Shown piece after piece: positions 6,121-57,705 of a stretch of DNA of 64,000 nt; the first letter of the stretch is position 1; every line of letters starts with the position of its first letter. The translations under genes were made by a program, and so were the position numbers. Under the pieces are notes generated by a model, which was not told the DNA's origin, searched no databases, and saw nothing but the letters and a program-made list of their open reading frames with translations. The stretch is from Herbiconiux flava (lineage in GTDB: Bacteria > Actinomycetota > Actinomycetes > Actinomycetales > Microbacteriaceae), in the NCBI RefSeq assembly GCF_013409865.1, contig NZ_JACCBM010000001.1:1054001-1118000 (forward strand). The letters are read 5' to 3'.

Positions 6121-6306
6121 GCCCGCGCCGCTGCTCCAGCCGCCCACCCTTGACCGGCACCCGGCCGTGCCCCGTCGCTGGGAGGCCGCTGGATGCCCGG
6201 CCGCAGTCTGCTGGAGGCCCGCCCCCATTCCGCCGCGAACGGGAGCGGGCCGCCGGCGTTCGCGGTTCCATGGACTCGACACGATGGCTTGAGGGAAGGC
6301 GCCGCG

Positions 6307-40159: not shown

Positions 40160-41022
40160 AGACCGCCACGACGAAGAAGTCCTTCCTCCTGACGGCCGTG
40201 ATGACCGTCGCCCTGGTGTACTACCTCCTGCCCCTCGTCTGGCTCGTGATCAACTCGACGAAGAGTCAGGGCGACCTGTTCAGCACGCCCGGCCTGGCCT
40301 TCGGCAACTCGTTCGACCTGTTCGCGAACATCGACCGGCTGTTCGCCTACGAGGGCGGCATCTACGGGAGCTGGCTCGCCAACACCCTGTTGTACGCGGC
40401 GGCGGGGGCCCTCGGCTCGGCCATCCTGTGCTCGCTCGGCGGCTACGCGCTCGCCCACTTCGCCTTCCCGGGCAAGAAGGCGGCGTTCGCCATCATCGTC
40501 GGCGCCGTGATGGTGCCGGGGTCGGTGCTGGCGTTGCCGATCTTCTTGCTGTGCAGCCAGGTCGGCATCACGAACACGGCGCTGGCGGTCATCCTGCCCT
40601 CGCTCGCGAACCCGTTCGCGCTCTACCTGATGGCCATCTTCGCGGCGCAGTCGGTGCCGCCCGAGCTGCTCGAGGCAGCGCGGATGGACGGGGCGGGCGA
40701 GCTGCGCATATTCTTCTCGATCGCGCTGCGGCTGATCGCGCCGGGGCTGGTGACTGTGACGCTGTTCCAGATCACGGCGGCGTGGAACAACTACTTCCTC
40801 CCGCTGATCGTGCTGAACGACTCCGGCCTGTTCCCGCTCGGTGTCGGGCTGGCGCAGCTCAACGCTCGGGCCACCCAGAACGACAGCGCGCTGAATGCCG
40901 CTGGCCTGTACCCGACGGTGCTGGTCGGGTCGCTGATCGCCATCATCCCGCTCGTCCTCGCTTTCCTCCTCCTCCAGAGGTTCTGGCGCTCCGGCCTGGC
41001 CGCCGGCGCCGTGAAGCTCTGA
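40156..41022 (+). CDS. CUT1 sugar ABC transporter permease 2
   Basis: A 288-residue MalG-type permease, six membrane segments, EAA loop LEAARMDGAGELRIFFSIALRLIAPG (about residues 175-200) and the usual C-terminus FWRSGLAAGAVKL. The ATG at 40156 sits on the stop of permease 1 (ATGA). It pairs with permease 1 to form the pore. Confidence 0.9.
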   Translation: MKTATTKKSFLLTAVMTVALVYYLLPLVWLVINSTKSQGDLFSTPGLAFGNSFDLFANIDRLFAYEGGIYGSWLANTLLYAAAGALGSAILCSLGGYALAHFAFPGKKAAFAIIVGAVMVPGSVLALPIFLLCSQVGITNTALAVILPSLANPFALYLMAIFAAQSVPPELLEAARMDGAGELRIFFSIALRLIAPGLVTVTLFQITAAWNNYFLPLIVLNDSGLFPLGVGLAQLNARATQNDSALNAAGLYPTVLVGSLIAIIPLVLAFLLLQRFWRSGLAAGAVKL

Positions 41023-41045
41023 CCCACCCCCGAAGAAAGGCAACA

Positions 41046-42440
41046 ATGATGTCCGTCCTTCCTGCCCGCACCGGCCGCACAGGCCGCACAGGCCCTGCCG
41101 GCCGCACCCGGCGCACCGGCCGTGTCGTCGGTGCCGTCGCCGCCGCCCTGATGGTCCTTCCCCTCGCGGCCTGCGCCGCCGGCGGTTCGGATGCCGCGTC
41201 CGGCACCAGTGACGAAGACCGCTTCGGCTCGCCCGACAACCCGATCACCCTCACGATGTGGTCGTGGGGCGGCGGAGACACCGCCGCCACGGAGAAGGCC
41301 TACGAGAAGCTGCACCCCGACGTCGACGTGCAGATCACCCAGTTCGGCGGCAGCGGCGACGTCTACACGAAGCTCGGTGTCGTGCTGAAGGCCGGAGACG
41401 GAGCGCCCGACATCACCGCGGTGGAGCTGATGAACATGCCGAGCTTCGCGGCCCAGGGCTACCTGGTCGACCTCGCCGACTACGGGGCCTCAGCCGATTC
41501 GTACAACCCCTCGGCCGCGGCCGCCGCATCGTTCGACGGCTCGCTCTACGCGATCCCCACCGACACCGGCCCGCTCGTCATGTACTACAACCAGGCGCTG
41601 TTCGATCAGCTCGGCATCGCCGCTCCGACCACCTGGGACGAGTACCGGCAGGCGGCCGAGACGCTGAAGGCCTCCGGCCACTTCATCGCCGACATCGACC
41701 CGGGCGACGCGAGCCTGTCACTCGGTCTGCTCCAGCAGGCCGGGGCCACCCCGTTCTCGCTCGAGGGCGACGACGCCGTCACGATCGACTTCACCGGGAA
41801 GGAGGCGAGCGCGGTGCAGGACTACTGGAGCTCGATGATCACCGACGGCCTGATCGACACCGAACCGGCGTGGTCGCAGGAATGGTTCAACCACTTCGCC
41901 GACGGAACCTACGCGACCTGGCTCACCGGAGCCTGGGGCGGATCGGTGCTGTCCGGGTCGATCCCGCAGGCGAACGGTCAGTGGCGGGTCGCCCCGCTGC
42001 CGAACTGGTCGGCCGATTCCGTCAGCGACGGCGTCTGGGGCGGCTCGGGAAGTGCGGTCACCACGCAGAGCAAGCACCCGGCGGCGGCAGCGGCCTTCGC
42101 CGAGTGGTTCTCCCGCGACCAGTACCTCGACCAGCTCGACAACGCCGCCAACATGCCCTTCCCGGCCAACCAGGAAGTGCTCGACGACCCCCGGTACGTC
42201 GACGCGTCGAGTGAGTTCCTCGGGGGCCAGAAGCCGGGTCAGCTGTACATCGATGCGGCCGCGACGGTCAACACCGACTTCCAGTTCCTTCCCTTCCAGC
42301 TCTACGCCAACAGCGTGTTCAAGGACACCGTCGGACAGGCGATCGTCGGCGACGGCGACCTGAGCGCCGGGTTCCAGGACTGGCAGAAGAAGATCGCCGC
42401 CTACGGCACCGACCAGGGCTTCACGGTCACCTCCAAGTAG
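41046..42440 (+). CDS. CUT1 sugar-binding lipoprotein
   Basis: A 464-residue family-1 extracellular solute-binding protein. A long basic N-terminus (RTGRTGRTGPAGRTRRTGR) precedes the hydrophobic core and the lipobox LAAC (Cys about 43). Body landmarks: ITLTMWSWGGGDT, PDITAVELMNMPSFAAQGYLVDLADY, YAIPTDTGPLVMYYNQALFDQLGI and WLTGAWGGSVL. AGAAAGG precedes ATGATG. A strong hairpin follows the stop. The ligand is an unknown oligosaccharide or glycoside. Confidence 0.9.
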   Translation: MMSVLPARTGRTGRTGPAGRTRRTGRVVGAVAAALMVLPLAACAAGGSDAASGTSDEDRFGSPDNPITLTMWSWGGGDTAATEKAYEKLHPDVDVQITQFGGSGDVYTKLGVVLKAGDGAPDITAVELMNMPSFAAQGYLVDLADYGASADSYNPSAAAAASFDGSLYAIPTDTGPLVMYYNQALFDQLGIAAPTTWDEYRQAAETLKASGHFIADIDPGDASLSLGLLQQAGATPFSLEGDDAVTIDFTGKEASAVQDYWSSMITDGLIDTEPAWSQEWFNHFADGTYATWLTGAWGGSVLSGSIPQANGQWRVAPLPNWSADSVSDGVWGGSGSAVTTQSKHPAAAAAFAEWFSRDQYLDQLDNAANMPFPANQEVLDDPRYVDASSEFLGGQKPGQLYIDAAATVNTDFQFLPFQLYANSVFKDTVGQAIVGDGDLSAGFQDWQKKIAAYGTDQGFTVTSK

Positions 42441-44600: not shown

Positions 44601-45770
44601 CTAGCGCACCGCGAACGGCGACGCCGCCCCCACCCCGAACAGCGCCACCCCCGTGAACACCTCGACGGTCTCGCCGTCGACCAACACCTCCACCGCGCCG
44701 TCGCCGGCCGGCACCACCGTCTCCGCGCCCTGCCAGGTGCAGACCACCGAGTCGAGCTCGCGCCGGATGGTGAGCGTCCCGTCGGCGCTCGACGCCGTCC
44801 ACTCCTCGCCGACGGCGATCGCGGTGCGCGCCGAGGCCGAGGCCTCCGCGACCGCGGGGTGCGGCGACGCGACGAGGGTGTCGCCCTCGAGCCGCAGCAC
44901 GTGCGGCACGCTGAGCGCGCTGCTGCGGCCGACGTCGGGGTCGCTCGCGCCGCGCATCCACGAGATCAGGCAGGGCCGGCCGTCGCGGTCGCGGAAGAAC
45001 GAGGGTGCGTAGTAGCTGTCACCGTACGTCAGGCGTCCCCAGCTGCTCGCGGTGAAGCGGCCGTCGGCGAACGCGCCCACGGCGTAGGCGACGTAGTGCA
45101 GTTCGTCGTCCTGCCAGACCGAGGTGACCATCACGTCCCGGCCGTCGATGCTGAAGATCTGCGGGCACTCCCACAGTGCGCCCGTCCACACCGGGTCGGT
45201 CTCGGTCGTGCTGCGCGATGCCGCCAGGCCGTCGAACGACCAGGAACCGAGGTCGTCGGAGACGAACGAGCTCGCCGCGGCGTCTCCGCCCACGATGGCG
45301 GTGCCCACGAGCATCCGCCACCTCTCACCGTCGCGCATCACGAAGGGGTCGCGGAAGGCCACGAGATCGAGCGGCGGCGCCTCGGCGACCACCTCTCCCT
45401 TGGTCCAGACGAGCCAGTCGTCGTCGGCCGGGGTCGCGGTGCGGATACGGCCCACCCCGAACTCGGGCGTCGAGACCGCGGTGTAGAAGATCGTGGCGCG
45501 GCCCTCGTCGTCGACCGCGAGGGAGCCCGACCAGATGCCGTCGTCGCCGTCACCCGGTTCGAGGGCGACCGGATGCTCGGTCCACGAGATCAGGTCGGGG
45601 GAGCTCGCGTGACCCCAGCGGCACTCGGGAGCCCACGTCGTGCGGTCGGGCACGTACTGGAAGAACAGGTGGTAGCGGCCGTTGTGCCAGGTGAGCGCGA
45701 GCGGGTCGTTCATCCAGCCGGAACCGGGCGTGAAGTGCCAGCGGGGGCGGGCGCGCGTCGCGTGCGTCAT
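44601..45770 (-). CDS. GH32 beta-fructosidase, cytoplasmic
   Basis: A 389-residue GH32 enzyme with nucleophile Asp22 (SGWMNDPLA), transition-state Asp141 (AFRDPF) and acid/base Glu201 (WECPQ). The five-bladed propeller is complete; the C-terminal beta sandwich (about 310-389) is short compared with most invertases and levanases. No signal peptide, so it splits imported fructosides inside the cell. GGAG precedes the ATG at 45770. It is divergent from the importer operon and shares its 175-bp control region. Confidence 0.92.
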   Translation of the reverse strand: MTHATRARPRWHFTPGSGWMNDPLALTWHNGRYHLFFQYVPDRTTWAPECRWGHASSPDLISWTEHPVALEPGDGDDGIWSGSLAVDDEGRATIFYTAVSTPEFGVGRIRTATPADDDWLVWTKGEVVAEAPPLDLVAFRDPFVMRDGERWRMLVGTAIVGGDAAASSFVSDDLGSWSFDGLAASRSTTETDPVWTGALWECPQIFSIDGRDVMVTSVWQDDELHYVAYAVGAFADGRFTASSWGRLTYGDSYYAPSFFRDRDGRPCLISWMRGASDPDVGRSSALSVPHVLRLEGDTLVASPHPAVAEASASARTAIAVGEEWTASSADGTLTIRRELDSVVCTWQGAETVVPAGDGAVEVLVDGETVEVFTGVALFGVGAASPFAVR

Positions 45771-45827
45771 GAGGGCGGCTCCTTCTGCTGCCGCCGTCGA
45801 TGGCGGGCCTGCTGGACAAGTATGGAC

Positions 45828-45857
45828 TTGACAAGACGATTTGGCAAAACGTATTGT
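45828..45857 (+). promoter_or_regulatory. Fructan importer promoter with LacI-type operator
   Basis: TTGACA (45828-45833) and TATTGT (45852-45857) are 18 bp apart. Between them lies CGATTTGGCAAAACG (45837-45851), a 15-bp dyad with TTTG-G-CAAA arms, the odd-centre form common for LacI-family operators. The regulator at 49133-50200 is the likely ligand, and divergent GH32 may be controlled too. Confidence 0.65.
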
Positions 45858-45945
45858 CAGTGCTGTCGCCCCGGCGATGCGCGCCGGCACCCACGGCACG
45901 TACCCTCGCAATCACGCAACGTCGCACAGAATTGGAGTCGAAGTG

Positions 45946-47262
45946 ATGATGCTTCGCACACACCGACCGGTGTCCCGCCGGGTCCTGGCCGGAGCCGCCG
46001 GCGCCCTCGCCCTCGCCACCGCCGTCGTCCTGTCGGGCTGCGGTGCCGGAGGAGGAGCCCCCGCAGCGGGCGACGACTCGATCACCGTGCTCGTCGAGGC
46101 CGGTGGCCACGGCGAGCTGCAGCCCATCGCCGACCAGTTCGAGAAGGACACCGGCACGTCGGTCACCTTCGTCGAGCTGCCCTACGACGGCCTCTACAAC
46201 CGCCTGAACAGCGAGTTCAGCTCGGGGTCGCTCTCGTTCGACGTCGCCGCCCTCGACTCGATCTGGCTGCCGACCTTCGCCGAGGCGCTGACGCCGCTGG
46301 ATGACATGATGACCGACGAGGTGCAGTCCGACCTCTTCCCGGCGCTCGTCACCGAGGCGCAGGTCGACGACTCCTTCGTCGGGATGCCCGCCTGGACCAA
46401 CTCCGAGATCCTCTACTACCGCACCGACCTCTTCGAGGACCCGGCCCAGCAGCAGAAGTTCAAGGCCGAGTACGGCTACGACCTGGTCCCACCCACCACC
46501 TGGGAGCAGTACGCCGACGTCGCGAAGTTCTTCACGCAGGACACCGACAGCGACGGTCAGGTCGACGTCTACGGCACCGACGTGAAGGGCGCGGTCGAGA
46601 CCGAGTGGCTCGCCACCCTCTCGCAGACCGGCGAGAAGGACATGGTCGTGGGTGACGACGGCACCGTCTCGCTCGGCGACGCGGACAGCCTCGCCGCGCT
46701 CGACTTCTACACCAGCCTCCTGCCGTACGCCCCGTCGGGTGCCGCGCAGCTGGACTGGGCCGGATCGCAGAATCTCTTCAACCAAGGCCAGCTCGCGATG
46801 ATGCGCTTCTGGGCGCACGCCTACAAGCAGATCCCCGCCGACTCGGCGGTCACCGGCAAGGTCGGCGTGACCACGATGGTGGGCGGCCCCGGCGGGGTCG
46901 CCGGCGTGCCCGGAGCCTGGTACCTCTCGGTGCCGGCCGGCACGAGCAAGCAGGAGAAGGCGCTCGAGTTCGTGCAGTACGCCTACGACCACAACGAGCT
47001 GTCCGTCGACACCGACCTCGGCCTCGCCTCGCGCATCTCGGTGCTCGAGAAGTACCAGGACGAGCCCGGCTACGAGAACTACAAGCCGCTGGTCGACACC
47101 CTGAACGCCACCGCGACGATCCCGCGGCCGGCGAACCCGAACTGGCAGGAGATCGTCGACTCGGCGCTCATCCCGATGATCCAGAAAGCCGTCGTGCCGG
47201 GCGCCGACAACCAGCAGCTCCTCGACGACGCCAAGGCGCAGGTGGAGTCCATCACCGAGTGA
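45946..47262 (+). CDS. CUT1 sugar-binding lipoprotein of the fructan locus
   Basis: A 438-residue family-1 solute-binding protein: hydrophobic signal then lipobox LSGC (Cys28). Body motifs are SITVLVEAGGHGELQPIADQFEKDTGTSVTFVELPYDGLYNRLNSEFSSGSLSFDVAALDSIWLPTFAEALTPLDD and GMPAWTNSEILYYRTDLFEDP. TTGGAG lies before ATGATG at 45946/45949. The neighbours (GH32, fructokinase, GH91) suggest it binds a fructose oligomer or difructose anhydride. A 12-bp-stem hairpin follows the stop. Confidence 0.9.
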   Translation: MMLRTHRPVSRRVLAGAAGALALATAVVLSGCGAGGGAPAAGDDSITVLVEAGGHGELQPIADQFEKDTGTSVTFVELPYDGLYNRLNSEFSSGSLSFDVAALDSIWLPTFAEALTPLDDMMTDEVQSDLFPALVTEAQVDDSFVGMPAWTNSEILYYRTDLFEDPAQQQKFKAEYGYDLVPPTTWEQYADVAKFFTQDTDSDGQVDVYGTDVKGAVETEWLATLSQTGEKDMVVGDDGTVSLGDADSLAALDFYTSLLPYAPSGAAQLDWAGSQNLFNQGQLAMMRFWAHAYKQIPADSAVTGKVGVTTMVGGPGGVAGVPGAWYLSVPAGTSKQEKALEFVQYAYDHNELSVDTDLGLASRISVLEKYQDEPGYENYKPLVDTLNATATIPRPANPNWQEIVDSALIPMIQKAVVPGADNQQLLDDAKAQVESITE

Positions 47263-47268
47263 CGCGGG

Positions 47269-47301
47269 CTGCGGCGCCCCGACCCGACCGGGGCGCCGCA
47301 G
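47269..47301 (+). terminator. Hairpin after the fructan binding-protein gene
   Basis: CTGCGGCGCCCC (47269-47280) and GGGGCGCCGCAG (47290-47301) form a perfect 12-bp stem with a 9-base loop between the binding-protein gene and the first permease. No T-tract. Likely a stabiliser or attenuator that gives more binding protein than permease. Confidence 0.7.
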
Positions 47302-47341
47302 CGCTCTCCCGCCATCCGTCCCCCGACCCGAAAGTCTCCTC

Positions 47342-48235
47342 GTGCGTCTCACCGATCGCCGGTTCGCCTTCCTCCTGATGCTGCCGGCCACCGCCTTCCT
47401 CGCCGTCTTCGTGGCGTGGCCGCTCGTGCAGTTCGTCTCGGACTCGTTCTTCGAGATCAGCAAGTTCGCCGGCGGCCCGCGCACCTTCGTCGGCCTCGAC
47501 AACTACGTCGAGGCGTTCACCTCGGGCGACTTCGGCAACGCCGCCTGGCGCACCGTGGTCTACACCGTCATCGTGGTGGTCTTCGAGTTCGTGCTCGGCC
47601 TCGCCGTCGCGCTGATGTTCACAGCCCTCGGCAACTCCTCGCGGGTGTTCCGCACGATCTTCCTCTACCCGCTGATGATCGCCCCGATCGTCGCGGGCCT
47701 GCTCTGGCGCTTCCTGCTGATCGACAACTTCGGCATCGTCAACCAGCTTCTGACGGATGCCCACATCCTCAGCGACCCGGGCCAGATCCAGTGGCTGAGC
47801 GACCCGAACATCGCCCTGTTCTCGGTCGCGATCCCCGACATCTGGCTGACGACGTCGTTCATCTCGCTCGTGCTGTTCGCGGGCCTGCAGAACATCCCCG
47901 GCGACGTGATCGAGGCGGCGAGGCTCGACGGGGCGCGCTACCCGACGATCCTGTTCCGCATCATCATCCCGCTGCTGAGGCCCGTGATCGCGGTGGCCCT
48001 GATCCTCCGCGGCATCGACGCGGCCCGCGCCTTCGACGTCATCCTGATCCAGACCAACGGCGGCCCTCAGCAGAGCACCGAGACGATGTCGCTGCTCGTC
48101 TACCGCACCATGGTTCGGTTCGGCGACCCGGGCCTCGCGAGTGCCATGGGCACCGTCTACCTCGTGGCCATGCTCGCGGTCTCGGTCGCGGCCATCCTGC
48201 TCATCTGGCGACCCGGAAGTGAGAACATCCGATGA
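47342..48235 (+). CDS. CUT1 permease 1 of the fructan locus
   Basis: A 297-residue MalF-type permease, six membrane segments, EAA loop IEAARLDGARYPTILFRIIIPLLRPV (about residues 190-215). GTG start at 47342 with GAAAG upstream. Stop overlaps the next permease by 4 bp. Confidence 0.9.
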   Translation: MRLTDRRFAFLLMLPATAFLAVFVAWPLVQFVSDSFFEISKFAGGPRTFVGLDNYVEAFTSGDFGNAAWRTVVYTVIVVVFEFVLGLAVALMFTALGNSSRVFRTIFLYPLMIAPIVAGLLWRFLLIDNFGIVNQLLTDAHILSDPGQIQWLSDPNIALFSVAIPDIWLTTSFISLVLFAGLQNIPGDVIEAARLDGARYPTILFRIIIPLLRPVIAVALILRGIDAARAFDVILIQTNGGPQQSTETMSLLVYRTMVRFGDPGLASAMGTVYLVAMLAVSVAAILLIWRPGSENIR

Positions 48236-49071
48236 ACGGCCTCGAAACCACCCGAACGAGCTCCCGGGCCATCCTCTGGGTCGCCCTCGTGCTGCTCGTC
48301 GTGCTCTACGGCTTCCCCTTCCTCTACATGCTCTTCACCTCGTTCAAGACGCCGCTGGAGACCATCGCGGTACCCCCGACCGTGCTGCCCTCGAGCTGGA
48401 CGATCGAGAACTACGCCTCGGCCATCGGCCGTGACGGAGTGGTCGCCTCGTTCGTGAACAGCGTCGTGACGGCCGTGCTCAGCACTGCCATCTCGCTGGT
48501 GCTGGCGCTGCCGGCGGCCTACGCCGTCACCCGCTTCCGCACCCGCTTCGGTCGCTTCTTCATCGTCGGGGCCCTCGTGATGCGCATGGTGCCGCCGATC
48601 GTGATCGGTGTGCCGATGATCGGCATCTTCCGCAGCCTCGGCATCTCCGACACCTCGTTCGCCCTGGCGATCGCCCACGCCACCATCTCGCTGCCGCTGT
48701 CGATCTGGCTGATGTCGAGCTTCTTCGAGGCCGTGCCCGAGGAGCTCGAGGAGGCGGCCAAGATCGACGGTGCGAGCCGGCTCGGCGCGCTCTGGCGGGT
48801 GGTGCTGCCGGTCACCGCGGGAGGGATCGCGGTCACCGCGATCTTCGCCTTCCTGGCGTCGTGGAACGAGTTCCTGTTCGCGCTGCTGCTCACCGCCACG
48901 CGCTCGCAGACGACACCCATCGTGATCGCGAACTTCCAGACCCAGTTCGGCCTCGACTGGGGCGCGATGACGGCACTCGCGGTGCTGTACTCGGTGCCGG
49001 TCATCCTGCTCGCCCTCGTGCTGCAGCGTCACATCGTCGCCGGACTGACCGCCGGGGCGGTGAAAGGGTGA
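48232..49071 (+). CDS. CUT1 permease 2 of the fructan locus
   Basis: A 279-residue MalG-type permease with six segments, EAA loop EEAAKIDGASRLGALWRVVLPVTAGG (about residues 177-202) and the family C-terminus IVAGLTAGAVKG. It starts on the stop of permease 1. No ATPase gene follows. Confidence 0.9.
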   Translation: MNGLETTRTSSRAILWVALVLLVVLYGFPFLYMLFTSFKTPLETIAVPPTVLPSSWTIENYASAIGRDGVVASFVNSVVTAVLSTAISLVLALPAAYAVTRFRTRFGRFFIVGALVMRMVPPIVIGVPMIGIFRSLGISDTSFALAIAHATISLPLSIWLMSSFFEAVPEELEEAAKIDGASRLGALWRVVLPVTAGGIAVTAIFAFLASWNEFLFALLLTATRSQTTPIVIANFQTQFGLDWGAMTALAVLYSVPVILLALVLQRHIVAGLTAGAVKG

Positions 49072-49132
49072 CCGACTCGGTGAGAATGGTCGCGAGCCGA
49101 ATCGCCCGGCCTCGAGCATCCAAGGGGACACA

Positions 49133-50200
49133 GTGGCACGCAAAGCGGTAGGCATCAAGGACGTGGCCCGCGAGGCGGGGGTCTCGGTGACCACGGTCTC
49201 GCACATCCTGAACGACGTGGAGTTCGCGCGCGCGAGCGACGAGACCCGCGAGCGGGTGAAGTCGACGGCCGAGCGCCTGGGCTACGGCGCGAACCGCATC
49301 GCGCGGAGCCTGCGCCGCCAGCAGTCCGAGATGATCGGGCTGCTGAGCGAGGAGATCGCCACCACGCCGCACGCCGGCCGGATCATCCTCGGTGCGCAGG
49401 AGGCGGCCCGGAAGCGCGGCCTCACCCTCGTGCTCATCAACACCAGCCGCGACGAGCTCGACATCCAGCGCGACACGGATGCCCTGCTGCGCCAGCAGGT
49501 CGACGGAGTGCTCTACGCCACGATGTACCACCGCGAGATCGACCTCCCCCGCTCGCTGCGGTCGGTTCCGACGGTGCTGATCGACTCGACCTCGCAGGAC
49601 GGAAGCGTGCCGTCGGTCGTCCCCGACGAGGAGGGCGGAGCGTACGTCGCCGTGAACGAGCTGATCGGGCACGGCCACCGGCGCATCGGCTTCGTCACCA
49701 ACTCCGACGACGTCCCGGCGACCCGCGGCCGACTCGCGGGCTACCGGCGTGCGCTGGCCGAGGCGGAGGTGGAGTTCGACCCGCGACTCGTGGTCGCCGA
49801 GCAGTCCGAGACCCCCGGCGGGTACAAGGCCGCCCGCTCGGTGCTCGACCGCGACCGCGCCGACCGGCCGACCGCCCTGTTCTGCTACAACGACCGGATG
49901 GCCATGGGTGCCTACCGGGCCGCGGCGGAGCTCGGGCTCCGCATCCCCGCCGACCTCTCGATCGTCGGCTTCGACAACCAGGAACTGATCGCCGAAGGTC
50001 TCTACCCGGCCCTCACCACCGTCGCTCTGCCGCACTTCGAGATGGGCGAGTGGGCCCTCGGCGCCCTGGCCGAGCTGATGGTGGGCGACGCCGACTCCGC
50101 CGCGAAGGACAGCTACCAGCCCGCGGTGCTCTCCTGCCCGCTGGTGCGGCGCGACTCGGTCGCGGCACCCCGCCCGGCCGGAGGATCCGCCGGTGACTGA
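49133..50200 (+). CDS. LacI-family transcriptional regulator of the fructan locus
   Basis: A 355-residue LacI protein: GIKDVAREAGVSVTTVSHILNDVEFARASDETRERVKSTAERLGYGANRIARSLRRQQ, effector domain with FCYNDRMAMGAYRAAAELGLRIP and SIVGFDNQELIAEGLYPALTTVALP. AAGGGG precedes the GTG at 49133. It overlaps the fructokinase start by 8 bp and should bind the dyad at 45837-45851. The effector is probably fructose, a fructoside or a phosphate ester. Confidence 0.88.
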   Translation: MARKAVGIKDVAREAGVSVTTVSHILNDVEFARASDETRERVKSTAERLGYGANRIARSLRRQQSEMIGLLSEEIATTPHAGRIILGAQEAARKRGLTLVLINTSRDELDIQRDTDALLRQQVDGVLYATMYHREIDLPRSLRSVPTVLIDSTSQDGSVPSVVPDEEGGAYVAVNELIGHGHRRIGFVTNSDDVPATRGRLAGYRRALAEAEVEFDPRLVVAEQSETPGGYKAARSVLDRDRADRPTALFCYNDRMAMGAYRAAAELGLRIPADLSIVGFDNQELIAEGLYPALTTVALPHFEMGEWALGALAELMVGDADSAAKDSYQPAVLSCPLVRRDSVAAPRPAGGSAGD

Positions 50201-51155
50201 GCTGCTCGTCGTCGGCGAGGCGCTCGTCGACGTCGTGTCGACGCCCGTCGGGCGGCAGGAGCACCCGGGCGGCAGCCCGATGAACGTCGCCATCGGTCTC
50301 GCTCGGCTCGGAGCATCCGTCGCCCTGGCGACCCGCCTCGGCACGGATGCCCGGGGCCGGCTGGTCTCGCGCCACCTCGCCGACTCGGGCGTGCGTCTGG
50401 CGCCCGGCTCGCTCGACGAGGCGATCCGCACCTCGAGCGCGACCGCCACGATCGGGGCCGACGGCTCGGCGAGCTACGACTTCGACATCGCCTGGGACGT
50501 CTCCGACCTGCCCGCGACCGGCTTCGAGCTGGTGCACACCGGATCGATCGGGGCGCTCTTGGCGCCCGGAGCCGACGCGGTCGCCGCGTGCTTCGAGGCC
50601 GTCGACGAGGGAGTGCTCCGGTCGTTCGACCCCAACATCCGGCCGTCGGTGCTCGGCAGCCGCAGCGAAGTGCTCCCGCTCGTGGAGCGACTGGCCCGGG
50701 CGAGCACGGTGGTGAAGCTGAGCGACGAGGATGCGCGCTGGCTGCATCCCGAGCTCGATCCGCTCGGGGTGACCGCCCATTACGCGCGCCTCGGCGCGCA
50801 GATCGTCGTGGTGACGCGCGGCCCGGAGGGGAGCCTCCTGCGTGCCGGCGCCGAGACGGCCGCCATCTCGTCGCCGACCGTCGACGTCGCCGACACGATC
50901 GGTGCCGGCGACTCGTTCATGGCCGGGCTGCTGTTCGGCCTCACGACCTCGGTCGGCGCCGAGACGGTCGTCGGGCGAGCGGCGGCCTTCGACGACATCG
51001 TGCAGGCGGCCCGGTTCGCCGCCGCGTGCGCCGCGATCACGGTCGGCCGCCCCGGCGCCGACCTCCCGCGACGGCACGAGGTCGGCGTCCTGACGACAGC
51101 ACCGGCACCGGCACCCGCACCGGCACCCGCACCCGCAGAGAGAGGCAGACGATGA
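50193..51155 (+). CDS. PfkB-family fructokinase
   Basis: A 320-residue ribokinase-family sugar kinase: LLVVGEALVDVV at the N-terminus with substrate Asp, HPGGSPMNVAIGLARLG, NIRPSV (FDPNIRPSV, the fructokinase pattern), VVTRGPEGSLL, and the catalytic base in DTIGAGDSFMAGLLFGL. GGAGG precedes the GTG at 50193. The last ~20 residues are an Ala-Pro repeat encoded by a CCGGCA/CCCGCA microsatellite (about 51093-51138), outside the catalytic fold. It makes fructose 6-phosphate from the fructose freed by GH32. Confidence 0.9.
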   Translation: MTELLVVGEALVDVVSTPVGRQEHPGGSPMNVAIGLARLGASVALATRLGTDARGRLVSRHLADSGVRLAPGSLDEAIRTSSATATIGADGSASYDFDIAWDVSDLPATGFELVHTGSIGALLAPGADAVAACFEAVDEGVLRSFDPNIRPSVLGSRSEVLPLVERLARASTVVKLSDEDARWLHPELDPLGVTAHYARLGAQIVVVTRGPEGSLLRAGAETAAISSPTVDVADTIGAGDSFMAGLLFGLTTSVGAETVVGRAAAFDDIVQAARFAAACAAITVGRPGADLPRRHEVGVLTTAPAPAPAPAPAPAERGRR

Positions 51156-52489
51156 GCAGCGCCAACCGCTACGACGTCACGACGTGGCCCGTCGGGGATC
51201 CCGCCCACGACATCGGGGAGGTGCTGAACAGCATCATCGCCGACGTCCACAGCCGCCAGTCGGCCTCGGTCGACTCCGACGGCGGCCGGCCCGGTGCGGT
51301 GATCGTCATCCCGCCGGGCGACTATCGGCTGCGCACCCAGGTCGTCATCGACCTCAGCTTCCTCAGGATCGAGGGGTCCGGCCACGGGTTCACCTCGTCG
51401 AGCATCCGCTTCAACGTGCCCGAGGAGGAGTGGACGGACCTCCACGAGCTGTGGCCGGGAGGCAGCCGCATCCTCGTCGACCTGTCCGTCGCCGCCGGGG
51501 CGAGCGAGCGCGAGGGGGCCGCCTTCGTGGTCTCGCGGAGCGGCAGCCCGCGGATCAGCTCGGTCGAGTTCGCCGGCTTCTGCATCGACGGGCTGCACTT
51601 CACGGGCGAGCGTTCGGGCCGGCATCCGGAGAACAGCTACTTCAACGGCAAGACGGGCATCTACGTCGAGAGCGCCAACGACTCGTTCCGCATCAGCGAG
51701 ATGGGGTTCGTCTACCTCGAGCACGCACTCACGATCTGCAACGCGGATGCGCTGTCGATCCACGACAACTTCGTCGCCGAGTGCGGCAGCTGCATCGAGC
51801 TGCGCGGCTGGGGCCAGGCCTCGAAGATCACCGACAACCTGATCGGTGCCGGCCCCGACGGTTACTCGATCTACGCCGAGAACCACGGCGGGCTGCTGAT
51901 CACGGCCAACAACGTCTTCCCGCGCGGGGCGAGCAGCGTGCACCTGGAGTCGGTGAGCCGCTCGAGCGTGACGGCCAACCGGCTGCACTCGTTCTACCCC
52001 GGGATGCTCGTGCTCGCCGGCGGCAGCTCGGAGAACCTCGTCGCCTCGAACCACCTGCTGCGCGACCACGAGCCGTGGACGCCGTTCCTCGGCGTCGACA
52101 ACGGCCTCGACGACCTCTACGGCCTCGTGCGGGTGGAGGGCAGCGACAACTCGATCATCGGGAACCACGTCTCCGAGGTGATCGATTCGGCGAGCATCCG
52201 CCCCGCCGGTGCGCGGCCGGTCGTCATCCGTCTCGCTTCGGGCAGCGGCAACTACGTCGCCACGAACCATGTCGTGGCGCGGGGCGTGCACGCGTCGACG
52301 GGTGGTTCGGCCTTCGAGGCCCAGGTGGATGCGCTGCTGGCGACCTCGGCGGCGGAGACCCTGGCCGTCACGGCCGTCGCCGTCGACCCGGCCTCGACGC
52401 GGAACACGATCCTCGACAGCGGCACCGACGCCGAGGTGCAGGCCGACCGCGCGGTCAACGCGGTCCGCCCGACCCCGACCGTCGACTGA
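51152..52489 (+). CDS. GH91 inulin fructotransferase / difructose anhydride hydrolase family, cytoplasmic
   Basis: A 445-residue right-handed beta-helix protein matching GH91 along its whole length: RYDVTTWPVG at the start, GAVIVIPPGDYRLRTQVVIDLSFLRIEGSGHGF, NSYFNGKTGIYV, MGFVYLEHALTICNADAL, AECGSCIEL, GPDGYSIYAENHGGLLITANNVFPRG, YPGMLVL and NGLDDLYGLV. Likely catalytic residues are Asp205 and Glu216 (11 apart, as in characterised members). Secreted inulin fructotransferases carry a signal peptide; this one does not, which is the state of DFA III hydrolases that open difructose anhydride to inulobiose. Its place after importer, GH32 and fructokinase genes supports an intracellular hydrolase. 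Transferase activity, or DFA I as substrate, remains possible. Confidence 0.88.
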   Translation: MSSANRYDVTTWPVGDPAHDIGEVLNSIIADVHSRQSASVDSDGGRPGAVIVIPPGDYRLRTQVVIDLSFLRIEGSGHGFTSSSIRFNVPEEEWTDLHELWPGGSRILVDLSVAAGASEREGAAFVVSRSGSPRISSVEFAGFCIDGLHFTGERSGRHPENSYFNGKTGIYVESANDSFRISEMGFVYLEHALTICNADALSIHDNFVAECGSCIELRGWGQASKITDNLIGAGPDGYSIYAENHGGLLITANNVFPRGASSVHLESVSRSSVTANRLHSFYPGMLVLAGGSSENLVASNHLLRDHEPWTPFLGVDNGLDDLYGLVRVEGSDNSIIGNHVSEVIDSASIRPAGARPVVIRLASGSGNYVATNHVVARGVHASTGGSAFEAQVDALLATSAAETLAVTAVAVDPASTRNTILDSGTDAEVQADRAVNAVRPTPTVD

Positions 52490-52496
52490 CCCGAGC

Positions 52497-53054
52497 TCAG
52501 AGGCGCGCCACGACGTCCTCGATGTTGGGATGGAGGTCGTTGTTCAGGCGGAGTACGCGCACCCCGGTCCATGAGATCGTGAGGTCTCCCCATTTCGGCC
52601 AGAATGCGTCCCAGTCGGCGAGCTTGACCGTGTCGCGGGGGAGACCGCGCTCGGCGAGGCGGCGTCGCGTCGTCGTCTCGGACGCGGACACATGGAGCAC
52701 GGTGTGGGGTAGAGCAGGCCAACCGGCCTTGTCCGCGGCCTCGGTGAAGAAGGCGGGCTGGTCGAGATAGGCGGCGAACGGCGCGTCGATGACGACGGAG
52801 CGACCGAGTCTCAAGTTGTCGTTCGCCACGGCGAACAACGCGGCGTACTCGGCGGGCATCACGTGCTCGAGGTAGTACGCGTTCGACTCCCGCTCGTCGC
52901 CCGGCTGCCCGTTGGCGGCGAGCGCTGCTTCCACGAGCGGCCCGGCGAGAGCGTCCTTGTCGAGGTAGACCGCTCTCGTGCGCCGGGCGAGGCGGCGGGC
53001 GACGGTGGACTTGCCCGAGCCGGCACCGCCGACCACCGCGAGTGCGAAGGTCAT
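52497..53054 (-). CDS. P-loop small-molecule kinase-like protein
   Basis: A 185-residue P-loop protein: Walker A GGAGSGKST (residues 9-17), an Asp-Lys-Asp after the first strand (YLDKDAL), VVIDAPFAAYL as Walker B, and a lid region RRRLAERGLPRD with several Arg. It looks like the AAA_33 / gluconokinase / adenylate-kinase-like group, so a sugar or sugar-acid kinase is plausible, giving the phosphorylated substrate for the aldolase with which it overlaps (4 bp). The exact substrate is not readable. It is convergent with the GH91 gene with only 7 bp between. Confidence 0.78.
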   Translation of the reverse strand: MTFALAVVGGAGSGKSTVARRLARRTRAVYLDKDALAGPLVEAALAANGQPGDERESNAYYLEHVMPAEYAALFAVANDNLRLGRSVVIDAPFAAYLDQPAFFTEAADKAGWPALPHTVLHVSASETTTRRRLAERGLPRDTVKLADWDAFWPKWGDLTISWTGVRVLRLNNDLHPNIEDVVARL

Positions 53055-53695
53055 CGCTGTCGGGCTCCGCGGACAGCGGTCAGGAAGTCGGCGGCCGCCG
53101 TCGTGACGCGGGAGTAGTCGCCGTCGGGCCTGGCGGCCTTGGTGATGGTGCTGCCCACGCCGACGGCTGCGACTCCGGCGTCGAACCAGGTCTTGGCGTT
53201 GGCGGCGGAGACCCCTCCCGCCGGCATCAGGGCGACGTGGGCCAGCGGTGCGAGGACGGCCCTGGCGTACTCGGGGCCGATCTCGGCGGGGAAGAGCTTC
53301 ACGATGTCGGCGCCCTCCTCGATCGATTCGACGATCTCGGTCGGAGTGTACGCGCCGCTGATCGTCGGCACCTGGTGCCTGTTGGCGGTGCGGATCATCT
53401 CTCGGCTGAGGTGGGGGCTGACCAGGAACGAGGCTCCTGCCGAGATGGACGCGTAGGCGCTCGGACCGTCGAGCACGGTGCCGGCGCCGATCGACGCGGC
53501 CGATCCGTGGGTCTCGACCAGGCGCTCGATCACGCGGAGTGCTCCCGGGGTGGAGAGGGTGATCTCGATGGCGCGAATGCCTCCGGCGATGGCCGCGTCA
53601 GCGGCTCGGTAGGCCTCGTCGGCGTCGTCGAGGCGAACGATGACGATGGTTCCGTCCTCGATGATGTGATTGAGGGTGACGAGTTTGTGCAGCAT
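53051..53695 (-). CDS. KDPG/KHG-type aldolase
   Basis: A 214-residue class I aldolase of the 2-keto-3-deoxy-6-phosphogluconate family: Glu44 (IEITLSTP), Schiff-base Lys133 (DIVKLFPAE), GAGTV and PAGGVSAANAKTWFDAGVAAVGVGS. It cleaves 2-keto-3-deoxy acid phosphates to pyruvate and an aldehyde phosphate. The ATG at 53695 is chosen; the longer frame to 53734 overlaps the DeoR operator. It is divergent from deoR and overlaps the P-loop kinase gene, so kinase and aldolase probably finish one sugar-acid pathway under DeoR control. Confidence 0.87.
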   Translation of the reverse strand: MLHKLVTLNHIIEDGTIVIVRLDDADEAYRAADAAIAGGIRAIEITLSTPGALRVIERLVETHGSAASIGAGTVLDGPSAYASISAGASFLVSPHLSREMIRTANRHQVPTISGAYTPTEIVESIEEGADIVKLFPAEIGPEYARAVLAPLAHVALMPAGGVSAANAKTWFDAGVAAVGVGSTITKAARPDGDYSRVTTAAADFLTAVRGARQR

Positions 53696-53710
53696 GCTCG
53701 CTAAACTACA

Positions 53711-53740
53711 ACAAAGTGCGACAGAAAGCGACAAAGATGA
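53711..53740. promoter_or_regulatory. Three phased 10-bp repeats, probable DeoR operator
   Basis: ACAAAGTGCG, ACAGAAAGCG and ACAAAGATGA follow each other at an exact 10-bp period (53711-53740), on the same face of the helix, in an AT-rich gap between aldolase and deoR. DeoR-family repressors bind arrays of such direct repeats. The array runs into the deoR start codon. Confidence 0.65.
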
Positions 53741-54525
53741 TCACATCGTCCGCTCTGCTGGCCGGGGACCGCCAGGCGCGCATCCGCGCTCAGATCGCCG
53801 ATCGGGGTTCGGTGCGCTCGGCCGAGCTCGCCGCGGAGCTCGGAGTCTCGATCGTCACCATCCGGCGCGATCTGGCCGACCTGCGGAAAGCCGGCGAGGT
53901 CGAGCTCGTCTACGGTGGAGCCCGCTCGGCGGGCGGGCGTGTACCGCCACCCGATCGTCGGGAGCGCACCGGGGTCGAGGTCGAAGCGAAAGCAGCGATC
54001 GCGCGGGCGGCGGCAGGTCTGCTGAAGGCGGGTGACACGGTGTATCTCGACTCGGGGACGACCTGCGCGGCCATGGTGCCGTATCTGGCAGCCGTCGACG
54101 GCCTGACGGTGGTCACCAACGACCTCACGACGGCGGTCGAGCTCACCGGCGCCGCTCCCGAGGTCTCGGTGATCATGGCGCCGGGCGTCATCGACCCCGC
54201 GACGCTCTCGACGGTCGGCGAACTCCTCCCGCCCGTGCTGGCGAACTTCGTCTTCGACGTCGTCTTCGTCAGCGCCAGTGCCTGGCAGCCCGGGGTAGGA
54301 GCCACCACGGGCGACCTCAGCTATGCCGCGGTGAAGAGAGCGGTGATCGAGCGGGCCAAAGCGTCGTATCTCCTGGTCGACGCCAGCAAATTCGGCGTGG
54401 CCGAGCCGCACGTCGTGCAGCGGTTGCAGGATTTCGATGCCGTCGTGACCGACGAGTCCCTCTCGGCCGAGCACCGTCGAGAGCTCGACCAGTGCGGTGT
54501 CGAACTGGTCGCGGCGTCCGCCTGA
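53737..54525 (+). CDS. DeoR-family transcriptional regulator
   Basis: A 262-residue DeoR/GlpR-type repressor: DNA-binding RQARIRAQIADRGSVRSAELAAELGVSIVTIRRDLADLRKAGEVELVYGGA, then a DeoRC sugar-phosphate sensor with VYLDSGTTCAAMVPYLA, VVTNDLTTAVEL, and VDASKFGVAEPHVVQRLQDFDAVVTDE. The ATG at 53737 is preferred to the in-frame GTG at 53716. The effector should be a phosphorylated sugar or sugar acid, consistent with the kinase-aldolase pair opposite. Confidence 0.87.
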   Translation: MITSSALLAGDRQARIRAQIADRGSVRSAELAAELGVSIVTIRRDLADLRKAGEVELVYGGARSAGGRVPPPDRRERTGVEVEAKAAIARAAAGLLKAGDTVYLDSGTTCAAMVPYLAAVDGLTVVTNDLTTAVELTGAAPEVSVIMAPGVIDPATLSTVGELLPPVLANFVFDVVFVSASAWQPGVGATTGDLSYAAVKRAVIERAKASYLLVDASKFGVAEPHVVQRLQDFDAVVTDESLSAEHRRELDQCGVELVAASA

Positions 54526-54533
54526 GATGACTC

Positions 54534-54592
54534 TTGACACTCGACGGTGGCTCGGTTAGCTTTTCTGCAACCGATCTCAGCAACCGATCTCA
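54534..54592 (+). promoter_or_regulatory. Promoter and tandem 13-bp repeat before the third CUT1 operon
   Basis: TTGACA (54534-54539), 17 bases, TAGCTT (54557-54562). Directly after the -10 the 13-mer GCAACCGATCTCA occurs twice without a gap (54567-54579 and 54580-54592), covering the transcription start. Tandem direct sites there suggest a repressor, perhaps the LacI at 59640 or the DeoR next door. Confidence 0.7.
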
Positions 54593-54604
54593 TTGGAGAG
54601 ATAC

Positions 54605-55870
54605 ATGATCAACAAGCGATGGGGCTTGACGCTGGCCAGCCTGACCATGGCCGGTCTCCTGCTCGCCGGGTGCTCCGCATCCTCCGACTCCGGATCCGCA
54701 GACTCTGCCGGACCGGTCACTCTCACCTACTGGGACTTCCTCGACCCGAGCCAGGACAACCCGCGCTCGAACGCTCTGAAGGAGAACATCGCGAACTTCG
54801 AGGCGGCGAACCCCGACATCACGGTCGACCTGTCGGTCGTATCACTCGGTGACATGCTCAACCGCCTGCCCCAGGCGGCGGCCGCCGGGCAGGCTCCCGA
54901 TGTCTTCAAGATGTTCACCCCGACCGTGCCGCAGATGGCGGCGGCCGGAGCGTACGAGCCTCTGCCGGAGGCGGCGACGGAGATCAGCGACTGGCTGCGT
55001 CCGACCGACGCGCTGATGGGGCGCGATGGTAAGCAGGTCGCCGTTCCCTACGAGTACCGCACCTGCGCCCTCTACTACAACCAGAAGATCCTCGACCAGA
55101 TCGGCGCTCCCGTGCCGACGACCTACGACGAGGTCATCGACGTGGCGGGCAAAGCCGCCGCCGCGGGCTTCACCGGGTTCGGGACCGGCTTCTCCGACAC
55201 GGACAACTCGGCGATCATCAGCACCTTCTTCGACTGCTTCATGAGCCAGGTCGAGCAGGAGATCTGGAACGGCGACGGCGACCCCGACTTCGCCACCAAG
55301 AAGGGCGAGGAGTTCGGTCAGTTCCTGGCCGACCTCCGCGATGCCGGAGGGCTCGGGAGCAGCGTCGTGTCCGACAGCTACTCCACCGTCACCGACGGCC
55401 TCACCAACGGCACCGTCGCCATGGCCGTGCTCGGCAGCGAGCGGGTCGTCACCCTCACGAAGGCCAATCCCGACGTGAAGTGGTCGGCTCTGCCCACCGC
55501 CTCGACGGGAGACTCCACCGGAGCGACCATCGGCTGGACGCTCGGCATGGGTGCCGGCACGAAGCACGCCGACGCGGCCTGGAAGTTCATCGACTACATG
55601 ACCGGAGCGGAGGCAGGAGCCGTGATGGCGACCGGTGGCGAGGTGCCCACGCGTTCGTCCACCTACGAGCAGCCGTACTTCTCCACGCCCGAGGCGGAGA
55701 CCGTGAACGCGGTCGCGGACTACGTCGAGAAGAACAGCAAGCCGCACGCCTACTCAGATGACTGGATCTCCATCGCGACGGGGCTCTCCTCGGCCGGACA
55801 GGAGCTCTACCTGAACGGGCTCAGCGGCAGCGAGTTCATCCAGTCCGCACAGGACTCCGCCAGCAAGTAG
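54605..55870 (+). CDS. CUT1 sugar-binding lipoprotein, third importer
   Basis: A 421-residue family-1 solute-binding protein, lipobox LAGC (Cys24). Landmarks: VTLTYWDFLDPSQDNPRSNALKENIANFEAANPDITVDLSVVSLGDMLNRLPQAAAAGQAPDVFKMF and VPYEYRTCALYYNQKILDQIG. TTGGAGAG precedes the ATG at 54605. A hairpin follows the stop. The ligand should be a substrate for the dehydrogenase-rich operon downstream. Confidence 0.9.
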   Translation: MINKRWGLTLASLTMAGLLLAGCSASSDSGSADSAGPVTLTYWDFLDPSQDNPRSNALKENIANFEAANPDITVDLSVVSLGDMLNRLPQAAAAGQAPDVFKMFTPTVPQMAAAGAYEPLPEAATEISDWLRPTDALMGRDGKQVAVPYEYRTCALYYNQKILDQIGAPVPTTYDEVIDVAGKAAAAGFTGFGTGFSDTDNSAIISTFFDCFMSQVEQEIWNGDGDPDFATKKGEEFGQFLADLRDAGGLGSSVVSDSYSTVTDGLTNGTVAMAVLGSERVVTLTKANPDVKWSALPTASTGDSTGATIGWTLGMGAGTKHADAAWKFIDYMTGAEAGAVMATGGEVPTRSSTYEQPYFSTPEAETVNAVADYVEKNSKPHAYSDDWISIATGLSSAGQELYLNGLSGSEFIQSAQDSASK

Positions 55871-55883
55871 CTCGATCGACAAT

Positions 55884-55910
55884 CCGGGGGGCCCGACCAG
55901 GGTCCCCCGG
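55884..55910 (+). terminator. Hairpin after the third binding-protein gene
   Basis: CCGGGGGGCCC (55884-55894) and GGGTCCCCCGG (55900-55910) pair over 11 positions with one G-U and a 5-base loop, between the binding protein and permease genes. No T-tract. Same location as the hairpins at 42449 and 47269. Confidence 0.68.
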
Positions 55911-55924
55911 GGAAACGAGTCGTC

Positions 55925-56848
55925 ATGACCCTCACCAGTGCGCCTGTCCTGCAGACCCCCACTCCCGTGGGAGAACGCACCTTCCGCCGCCCCCGCCGAG
56001 ACCGCAGGGTGTGGCTCTACGTCATCCCGGTCGTCGCAGTCTTCCTCTTCGTGTTCGTCGGCCCGCTGTTCTACACCGCGTGGACCGCGCTGCACGAGAC
56101 GAACTACTACCAGATCGGCGAGTTCTCCGGTCTCAGCTCGTTCAGCAACCTCTTCGCCGACCCCGACCTGCTGGGGCAGATCGGCACCACTCTCGTCTTC
56201 TCCCTCGGAGCGCTCGTCATCGCGCTGCCGGCGGGCCTCCTCTCGGCCATCGTGCTGAACAACCTGCACCGCTTCAAGCGCACCGTCCGCAGCCTGTTCC
56301 TGCTGCCGTGGCTGATGTCCCAGGCGACGGCCGGAACGATCTGGCTCTGGTTCCTCAACCCGAACTTCGGTCCGGCATCCGCCATCACCAAGGCGCTCGG
56401 GTTCGGCCCCACCGATGTCTTCTCGACACCATCCGCAGCCCTCGTCGCGGTCACCCTGATCACGGCCTGGTGGTCGTATCCGCAGGCGATGCTCCTGTTC
56501 CTCGGAGCTTTGCAGACCATCCCCGTGGAACTCCGCGAGAGCCTCACCATGGACGGCGGCGGCATCTGGCGCGGCTTCGTCAGCATCACACTGCCCTACC
56601 TCCGCAACACGATCGTCTCGGTCGTGGTGGTGCTGCTCATGCTCTACGTGCAGATGATCACCATCATCCTCGTCACCACCCGCGGTGGCCCGCTCGGGGC
56701 GACCGAGACCCTCTCCATGCGGGTCTACAACCAGACCTTCAACGACTTCGACCTGTCGGGAGCCTCGGCGACCGCGCTCCTCCTGTTCGCGATCAACGCC
56801 CTCCTGACCCTGGTCGCCATCCGGTTCCGACGTAAGGAAGCCCTGTGA
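55925..56848 (+). CDS. CUT1 permease 1, third importer
   Basis: A 307-residue MalF-type permease: a 35-residue polar N-terminus with RRPRRDRR, six segments, and an EAA-like loop RESLTMDGGGIWRGFVSITLPYLRNT (about residues 202-227) in which EAA is replaced by ESL. Overlaps permease 2 by 4 bp. Confidence 0.9.
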   Translation: MTLTSAPVLQTPTPVGERTFRRPRRDRRVWLYVIPVVAVFLFVFVGPLFYTAWTALHETNYYQIGEFSGLSSFSNLFADPDLLGQIGTTLVFSLGALVIALPAGLLSAIVLNNLHRFKRTVRSLFLLPWLMSQATAGTIWLWFLNPNFGPASAITKALGFGPTDVFSTPSAALVAVTLITAWWSYPQAMLLFLGALQTIPVELRESLTMDGGGIWRGFVSITLPYLRNTIVSVVVVLLMLYVQMITIILVTTRGGPLGATETLSMRVYNQTFNDFDLSGASATALLLFAINALLTLVAIRFRRKEAL

Positions 56849-57705
56849 CCGCCGCACCTGTCAGCCGCCGCCATCGCGCCGGCAAGGCACTCCGCAACGT
56901 CCCCGCCTGGATCTACATCGTGCTGTCGGCCGCGATCGTGCTGCCGCCCGTGGCCTGGATCCTCTCGACCTCGCTGAAGCCCGAGGCCGACACGATCCAG
57001 TTCCCACCCGAGTGGATCCCGAGCCCGGTGACCTTCGACGCCTTCACCGGGCTGTTCACCTCCACGAACATCCGCTTCTTCGTCAACTCGCTGATCTACG
57101 CCGGCGGCTCGATCGTGCTCGCGCTGATCATCTGCATCCCGGCCGCCTACGTGGCCACCCGCCATCACAGCCGCCGCATGGAGACCCTCATGACGGGCAT
57201 CCTGGTGCTGTCGATGGTGCCGGCGATCGTGGTGTTCATCGCGCTCTACTCGATGTTCGTCAAGACCGCCTTCATCAACACCTATCCCATGCTGATCGTG
57301 GTCTACACCGCGATCATCTGCGGCCAGACCATCCTGTTCCTGCGGAACTTCATCGAGAACATCCCCGTCGAGATCGAAGAGGCCGCTGCGATCGACGGAT
57401 GCTCGCGATTCCAGATCCTCTGGCGCATCGTCCTCCCCCTGATCCGGCCCGGAATCGCCGCCATCGCGATCTTCATCTTCGTCTTCGTCTGGAACGACTT
57501 CCTCGTCGGCACCGTGCTCGCCACGACCGAGGACATGAAGACGGTGCAGAACGGCATCGTCCGCTACGTCACGACCGGGTTCGGCAACTTCTGGGCCCTC
57601 TTCTCCGCCTTCGTGATCGTCGCGTTCATCCCGGTGCTCGCCATCTTCGCCGCCTTCCAGCGCTGGTTCATCGCCGGCCTCACCTCAGGTGGGGTGAAGG
57701 GATGA
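56845..57705 (+). CDS. CUT1 permease 2, third importer
   Basis: A 286-residue MalG-type permease: six segments, EAA loop EEAAAIDGCSRFQILWRIVLPLIRPG, ending FIAGLTSGGVKG. GTG start over the stop of permease 1 (GTGA); its own stop overlaps the next gene (ATGA). Confidence 0.9.
   Translation: MTAAPVSRRHRAGKALRNVPAWIYIVLSAAIVLPPVAWILSTSLKPEADTIQFPPEWIPSPVTFDAFTGLFTSTNIRFFVNSLIYAGGSIVLALIICIPAAYVATRHHSRRMETLMTGILVLSMVPAIVVFIALYSMFVKTAFINTYPMLIVVYTAIICGQTILFLRNFIENIPVEIEEAAAIDGCSRFQILWRIVLPLIRPGIAAIAIFIFVFVWNDFLVGTVLATTEDMKTVQNGIVRYVTTGFGNFWALFSAFVIVAFIPVLAIFAAFQRWFIAGLTSGGVKG

Follow-up and report, generated by a model that had tools for sequence, protein, structure and literature searches.

A probable difructose anhydride III catabolic operon in Herbiconiux flava, with a lidded GH91 hydrolase and a candidate twin LacI-type operator

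The seven genes at positions 44601-52489 of a 64,000 nucleotide stretch of Herbiconiux flava contig NZ_JACCBM010000001.1 (the window, which here always means that whole stretch) very probably make up a catabolic operon for difructose anhydride III (DFA III; di-D-fructofuranose 1,2':2,3'-dianhydride), centred on a GH91 protein. A GH32 gene on the reverse strand is followed, on the forward strand, by genes for a binding lipoprotein, two permeases, a LacI regulator, a PfkB kinase and the GH91 protein. The layout given in an initial annotation, made from the sequence alone, holds: all seven genes lie where it placed them and match the expected Pfam families.

In the proposed route, neighbouring organisms that secrete inulin fructotransferase would release DFA III from inulin. 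The lipoprotein would capture it, and the two permeases would carry it into the cell with energy from an ATPase whose gene lies outside the cluster. There the lidded GH91 hydrolase would open it to inulobiose via Asp199 and Glu210, GH32 would split the inulobiose into two fructoses, and the PfkB kinase would phosphorylate the fructose. The LacI protein, on a twin operator, would keep the GH32 and importer sides off until fructose, inulobiose or DFA III released it. By computation this reading rests on the enzyme class and its lid, the catalytic residues, the order of the genes, the conservation of the operator and the co-occurrence; the imported substrate, the binding and ligand of the LacI protein, the substrate of the kinase, which ATPase serves the importer and the source of DFA III are what we infer. 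The initial annotation had put forward the same succession of anhydride import, opening to inulobiose, GH32 cleavage and fructose phosphorylation, and this is the best reading of the locus, supported by the lid, the clade and the co-occurrence of GH91 with the binding protein.

The GH91 protein and its catalytic residues

51152..52489, forward strand: GH91 DFA III hydrolase, predicted cytoplasmic, 445 aa (identity to 5zks; lidded clade, support 100/100)
52280..52372, forward strand: C-terminal lid insert, about residues 377-407, a mark of DFA III hydrolases (no match in 2inu and 9j4i; missing from 5zky)
51746..51748, forward strand: codon of Asp199, catalytic by alignment (D207 in Arthrobacter aurescens, D233 in Bacillus)
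51779..51781, forward strand: codon of Glu210, catalytic by alignment (E218 in A. aurescens, E244 in Bacillus)

The GH91 protein is 74.6% identical, over 444 aligned positions and at full length, to the crystallised DFA III hydrolase (DFA-IIIase) of Arthrobacter chlorophenolicus (5zks), and end-to-end alignments with this enzyme score 751 bits (5zl5, the C387A form) and 750 bits (wild type). The alignment with the solved enzyme begins at residue 1 of the chain and no signal peptide was seen by eye, both of which bear out the earlier description of a GH91 protein without a signal peptide at 51152-52489.

The lid has no match in the inulin fructotransferases 2inu and 9j4i and is also missing from chain 5zky, apparently a lid-deleted construct. 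According to PMC11538131, citing Yu et al. 2018, the A. chlorophenolicus enzyme becomes an inulin fructotransferase when it lacks the lid. The lid is 31 residues long in 79 of 80 relatives and 30 in the other, a count that leaves out the window's own copy (L001), L083, a minus-strand row whose contig is as long as that of L049, and L082 and L084, which are apparent repeats of L004 and L055.

The initial annotation had proposed that the protein be placed in a tree and its C-terminal lid inspected; the lid is present, and in a GH91 tree built with the lid columns excluded, from every one of the 41 lidless rows, counting two references, and 26 of the 87 lidded ones, the window protein groups with 5zks and the 26 sampled lidded proteins with support of 100/100. 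The clade of 2inu and 9j4i stands apart, also at 100/100. The tree program warned that the lidded clade and this twin-arginine translocation (Tat) clade meet on long branches, so that the joining of the two is unsure and may be false; one row, L090_0, is itself a very long branch. With the DFA III-forming inulin fructotransferases 2inu and 9j4i the window protein has the family and the catalytic Asp/Glu in common, but these enzymes have no lid, belong to a clade with Tat-like signals and are about 46-50% identical to it. The window protein has the lid, shows no export signal by eye and does not group with 2inu; it is predicted to be a DFA III hydrolase.

The catalytic residues differ from those first named. 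In A. aurescens DFA-IIIase all four mutants of D207 and E218 were inactive, and these residues equal D233 and E244 of the Bacillus inulin fructotransferase (PMC4640833). Residue n of chain 2inu is n+40 in that paper, an offset counted by hand from F290-P291-R292 (chain residues 250-252) and Q256, and this places the pair on Asp199 and Glu210 of the window protein, both unchanged in 80/80 relatives. The initial annotation had given the family positions as Asp205 and Glu216. That pair is rejected, as it lies six positions too far along and column 205 is variable (D in 67 relatives, N in 7, H in 3 and G in 3), with His in the solved enzyme 5zks; column 216 is E in 79 relatives and D in one. The spacing of 11 residues is the same in both pairs, which may explain the slip.

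The twin operator and the neighbourhood in relatives

45829..45846, no strand: site 1 of a predicted twin LacI-type operator, TGACAAGACGATTTGGCA, an exact match to TGNCAANNCGNNTTGNCA
45842..45859, no strand: site 2 of the predicted twin operator, TGGCAAAACGTATTGTCA, set 13 bp on from site 1, with which it shares 5 bp

Both sites are 18 bp palindromes with a central CG and lie in the promoter region that GH32 and the importer, transcribed away from each other, have in common. No other place in the 3.85 Mb genome matches TGNCAANNCGNNTTGNCA exactly, and a reversed control pattern has no match there. A scan of the window for 20-mer palindromes had missed the operator, which was found by an 18-mer scan of the promoters.

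Across the importer promoters of relatives, 83/86 carry a site with at most one mismatch and 82/86 carry the 13 bp-spaced pair (two mismatches allowed in each site), against 1/1720 mononucleotide-shuffled promoters with a site; the 86 include apparent repeats of one genome (L088 of L071, L094 of L027), and related promoters are not independent. The three promoters without a site are those of L065, which carries a variant, L081, from Paenibacillus, and L095, from a genome (G097) with no GH91. Elsewhere in the loci, in 1.70 Mb, there are four exact sites, three of them upstream of GH91 genes of a third group (described below) and one near a LacI gene. Two of the one-mismatch sites (L004, L091) are near the border between the binding-protein and permease genes and may be there by chance.

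We infer from the sequences that the LacI protein of the operon binds the twin operator. No paper joining 'difructose', 'LacI' and 'operator' was found among open-licence papers, and the overlapping pair of LacI-type sites in the promoter common to GH32 and the importer is put forward as the candidate new element here.

The arrangement of genes is likewise widespread. Within 9 kb of GH91 at 80 loci found through that gene, using bit-score thresholds that we set, the binding protein is present in 77, permease 1 in 77, permease 2 in 78, LacI in 79, GH32 in 71 and PfkB in 47. The first five occur together in 68/80 loci, and all six, PfkB included, in 41/80; of the 12 loci without the full five, three are contigs 4.5-7.3 kb long. 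The initial annotation had known of few operons in which importer, regulator and enzymes are adjacent. Such rarity is rejected: loci found through GH91 have this neighbourhood as a rule, and a cluster resembling it has been published for Blautia (PMC11538131).

GH32 is the most exchangeable part of the set: its identity to the GH32 of the window is 71-86% at 5 of the relatives' loci, about 44-59% at 13 and 43% or less at 53.

Among 249 genomes of the family, the window's own included, GH91 is found in 10 and a relative of the binding protein (E of 1e-60 or better) in 10, with 9 genomes common to both (Fisher p = 1e-14, uncorrected for ancestry; scoring was of up to 6 candidates in each genome). 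The exceptions are G141, an incomplete genome with a 39% identical GH91, and G097, which has the weakest binding protein (48%) and no GH91.

The gene set and the choice of substrate

44601..45770, reverse strand: GH32 beta-fructofuranosidase, cytoplasmic, 389 aa, transcribed away from the importer genes (Glyco_hydro_32N, 195 bits, Pfam)
45946..47262, forward strand: solute-binding lipoprotein, 438 aa, lipobox VLSGC, part of a CUT1-type importer (SBP_bac_1, 103 bits)
47269..47301, forward strand: 13 bp G+C-rich hairpin between the binding-protein and permease genes, no T run (by folding)
47342..48235, forward strand: CUT1-type permease 1, GTG start (BPD_transp_1)
48232..49071, forward strand: CUT1-type permease 2 (BPD_transp_1)
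49133..50200, forward strand: LacI-family regulator (LacI helix-turn-helix and Peripla_BP_3)
50193..51155, forward strand: PfkB-family sugar kinase, probable fructokinase (PfkB, 134 bits)

Overlaps of 4 bases join the permease genes to each other and PfkB to GH91, and LacI shares 8 bases with PfkB; the overlap of PfkB and GH91 is the ATGA that had earlier been read as coupling GH91 to the kinase gene. The next open reading frame taken as a gene after GH91 (52497-53054) runs in the opposite direction.

The best solved match to the GH32 protein is the beta-fructosidase 1uyp (E 7e-43), and it carries the motifs NDP (21-23), RDP (140-142) and ECP (201-203), which we take to be catalytic. At 389 aa it is short; it has no match to the Pfam C-terminal domain, and its nearest solved relative, of 432 residues, is matched to residue 363. 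The kinase has a GAGD motif at 237.

A binding lipoprotein and two permeases are present, and the importer is presumably of CUT1 type from this family make-up. Solved structures are uninformative as to the ligand of the binding protein, the best match being a maltose-binding protein (E 2e-22). The 79-base gap between the binding-protein and permease genes, which holds the hairpin, has a minimum free energy of -41.1 kcal/mol, and the equivalent gaps fold below -20 kcal/mol in 76/76 relatives (lengths vary, and the figure is without a shuffled control); the hairpin would perhaps set the ratio of binding protein to permease.

Several observations weigh against the assignment of the whole set to DFA III. 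There is no gene for the importer ATPase in the cluster, for which reason the earlier word 'complete' overstates the route. The genome's sole OB_MalK match, at C1:1649528-1649671, is about 0.54 Mb from the cluster; actinobacteria are known to share such importer ATPases. The best NCBIfam model for the kinase is the fructokinase PRK09434, at 137 bits, under its cut-off of 450. Since GH32 is near GH91 in 71/80 loci, and mostly diverged, and PfkB in 47/80, these two steps would often be served by other versions or from elsewhere. The census of 80 loci, being found through GH91, tells what accompanies that gene and not the reverse. One genome (G113, locus L087) has relatives of the importer, LacI, GH32 and PfkB but only a lidless GH91, which, with the GH91-less G097, means that the importer can occur without DFA-IIIase. 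The DFA-IIIase gene is patchy within the genus, where 4/16 genomes have it, the window's own included.

A general system for inulin oligomers or fructo-oligosaccharides is the first alternative, and it is unlikely; in it the importer would bring in short chains of inulin, which GH91 would cut back to DFA III and inulobiose before GH32 completed the breakdown. Short inulin chains would be acted on by GH32 too, which counts towards such a system. A further point for it, and one that weighs on the DFA III assignment, is that a lidded Blautia DFA-IIIase also acted on inulin in vitro (PMC11538131). The lid separates the clade of the window protein from the transferases, however, an exo-acting GH32 alone would presumably suffice for oligomers, and binding proteins of this kind are nearly confined to GH91 genomes (9/10 in the 249). 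From the lid and the clade, the route can be narrowed to DFA III: of the 'difructose anhydride or inulin oligomers' of the initial annotation, the anhydride stands and the inulin oligomers are the weaker part.

That the cyclic substrate is DFA I instead of DFA III is very improbable. Among the 120 relatives listed are several that their source calls 'inulin fructotransferase (DFA-I-forming)', but these names look automatic, and the nearest solved proteins are DFA III hydrolases. The DFA I synthase/hydrolase is, we assume, a GH172 protein. The bacterial enzyme of that activity is of a different family from GH91 (PMC8605356).

It is barely credible that the window protein, as a relative (about 47% identical) of the secreted inulin fructotransferases that GH91 includes, is a leaderless transferase acting outside after lysis, beside an importer for another sugar, given its lid, its clade, its translational coupling to the kinase, and the separation at 100/100 of the 2inu/9j4i clade, whose 14 locus rows have Tat-like signals by eye.

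The DFA III assignment also agrees with known systems. An experimental description of the pathway exists for Arthrobacter (as recounted in PMC4640833 and PMC11538131) and for Blautia (PMC11538131). The Arthrobacter pathway, described for strain H65-7, A. ureafaciens, A. aurescens SK8.001 and A. chlorophenolicus A6 (PMC4640833 and works cited there), uses the same enzyme as the window; A. aurescens SK8.001 also makes DFA III with an enzyme of its own, whereas the genome that holds the window is without a second GH91. The Blautia cluster reported in 2024 (PMC11538131) is like that of the window in having GH91 DFA-IIIase beside GH32 and ABC importer genes, with a sugar kinase in two strains; it shares the proposed route, and use of DFA III is reported for three named strains. 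The window differs from it in belonging to an actinobacterium, in having a LacI gene and twin operator in the set, and in its divergent GH32; the section of PMC11538131 on the cluster names no regulator. The DFA I cluster of Bifidobacterium dentium (PMC8605356) is comparable in that alpha-FFase1, probably intracellular, takes difructose dianhydride to inulobiose and is encoded next to GH32 and ABC importer genes, as here, but that enzyme is of another family and acts on DFA I, not DFA III.

Two neighbouring regions of the window also hold sugar genes. Region 52497-57705 contains an AAA_33 kinase-like protein and KDPG aldolase, followed by what look by eye like a regulator of DeoR type, two permeases and a binding protein, and is probably a separate sugar or sugar-acid cluster. 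In region 39266-42440 another sugar importer (two permeases, binding protein) was seen by eye beside an aldo/keto reductase.

The source of DFA III and other GH91 types

The genome holding the window (98.9% complete) has no second GH91 that could be found, and its one GH32 is cytoplasmic, for which reason the host would seem to live by scavenging DFA III that others make. No extracellular inulin-attacking enzyme of GH91 or GH32 was seen in this genome, other families not having been searched.

In the 80 genomes with DFA-IIIase, the second GH91 is a Tat-type inulin fructotransferase in 14 (74-100% identical to the query), a full-length protein of a third type in 20 (52-56% identical), part of a third-type protein in three (G298, G304, G305), and absent in 43, a tally in which genes may be lacking from draft genomes. 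None of the 80 genomes combines the Tat type with the third type, the chance of no overlap being 0.012, uncorrected for ancestry. In Arthrobacter sp. Hiyo8 (L005, about 4960-6160, reverse strand) the Tat-type inulin fructotransferase is in two pieces (query 1-338 and 349-401), from either a broken gene or an assembly error.

The third group consists of 25 lidless rows, with no signal peptide recognisable by eye, in the DFA III loci of relatives, examples of which are:

L013:4911-6098, reverse strand
L062:8354-9544, forward strand
L087:6205-7398, reverse strand

The automatic label of one row (L053_1) as signal-less was rejected, since the tree puts this row in the Tat clade and a Tat signal can be read in the residues upstream of it; with this reassignment there are, besides the two references, 25 third-group and 14 Tat-clade rows. 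In 11 of the 25 (L013, L021, L026, L029, L035, L040, L052, L056, L067, L069, L073) a stop codon allows no more than 8 residues ahead of the matched start, and in the other 14 the frame is open further upstream, making a longer N-terminus possible. The group is set apart from the Tat and lidded clades by a branch with support of 95/89, which may be false, because the joining of those two clades may be a long-branch artefact.

Third-group proteins keep the equivalents of Asp199 and Glu210. A site with at most one mismatch to the operator lies 230-580 bp upstream of their genes in L008, L068, L071, L076, L088 and L089, which are five genomes, L088 being a repeat of L071. In G113 the only GH91 is of this group, and it is beside the importer (L087). 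The third group matches no described type that was found; its substrate, opened in the cytoplasm, may be a different difructose anhydride.

The enzyme, its pathway and similar clusters were already known, and the window is a clean further case. More tentatively, and with the balance somewhat against it, DFA III might be a currency between bacteria, in which many carriers of the operon, the present genome among them, could not make the sugar themselves and would depend on secretors of inulin fructotransferase for it, the LacI protein with its twin overlapping operator would be a single-purpose switch for this sugar, and the third GH91 branch would act on another difructose anhydride. What the analysis does for this family is to correct the active-site residues, to narrow the substrate to DFA III, and to show that around DFA-IIIase in related actinobacteria the operon is standard. 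Two further points are a candidate operator, through which a switch would respond to DFA III, and the possibility that producers share this sugar with scavengers.

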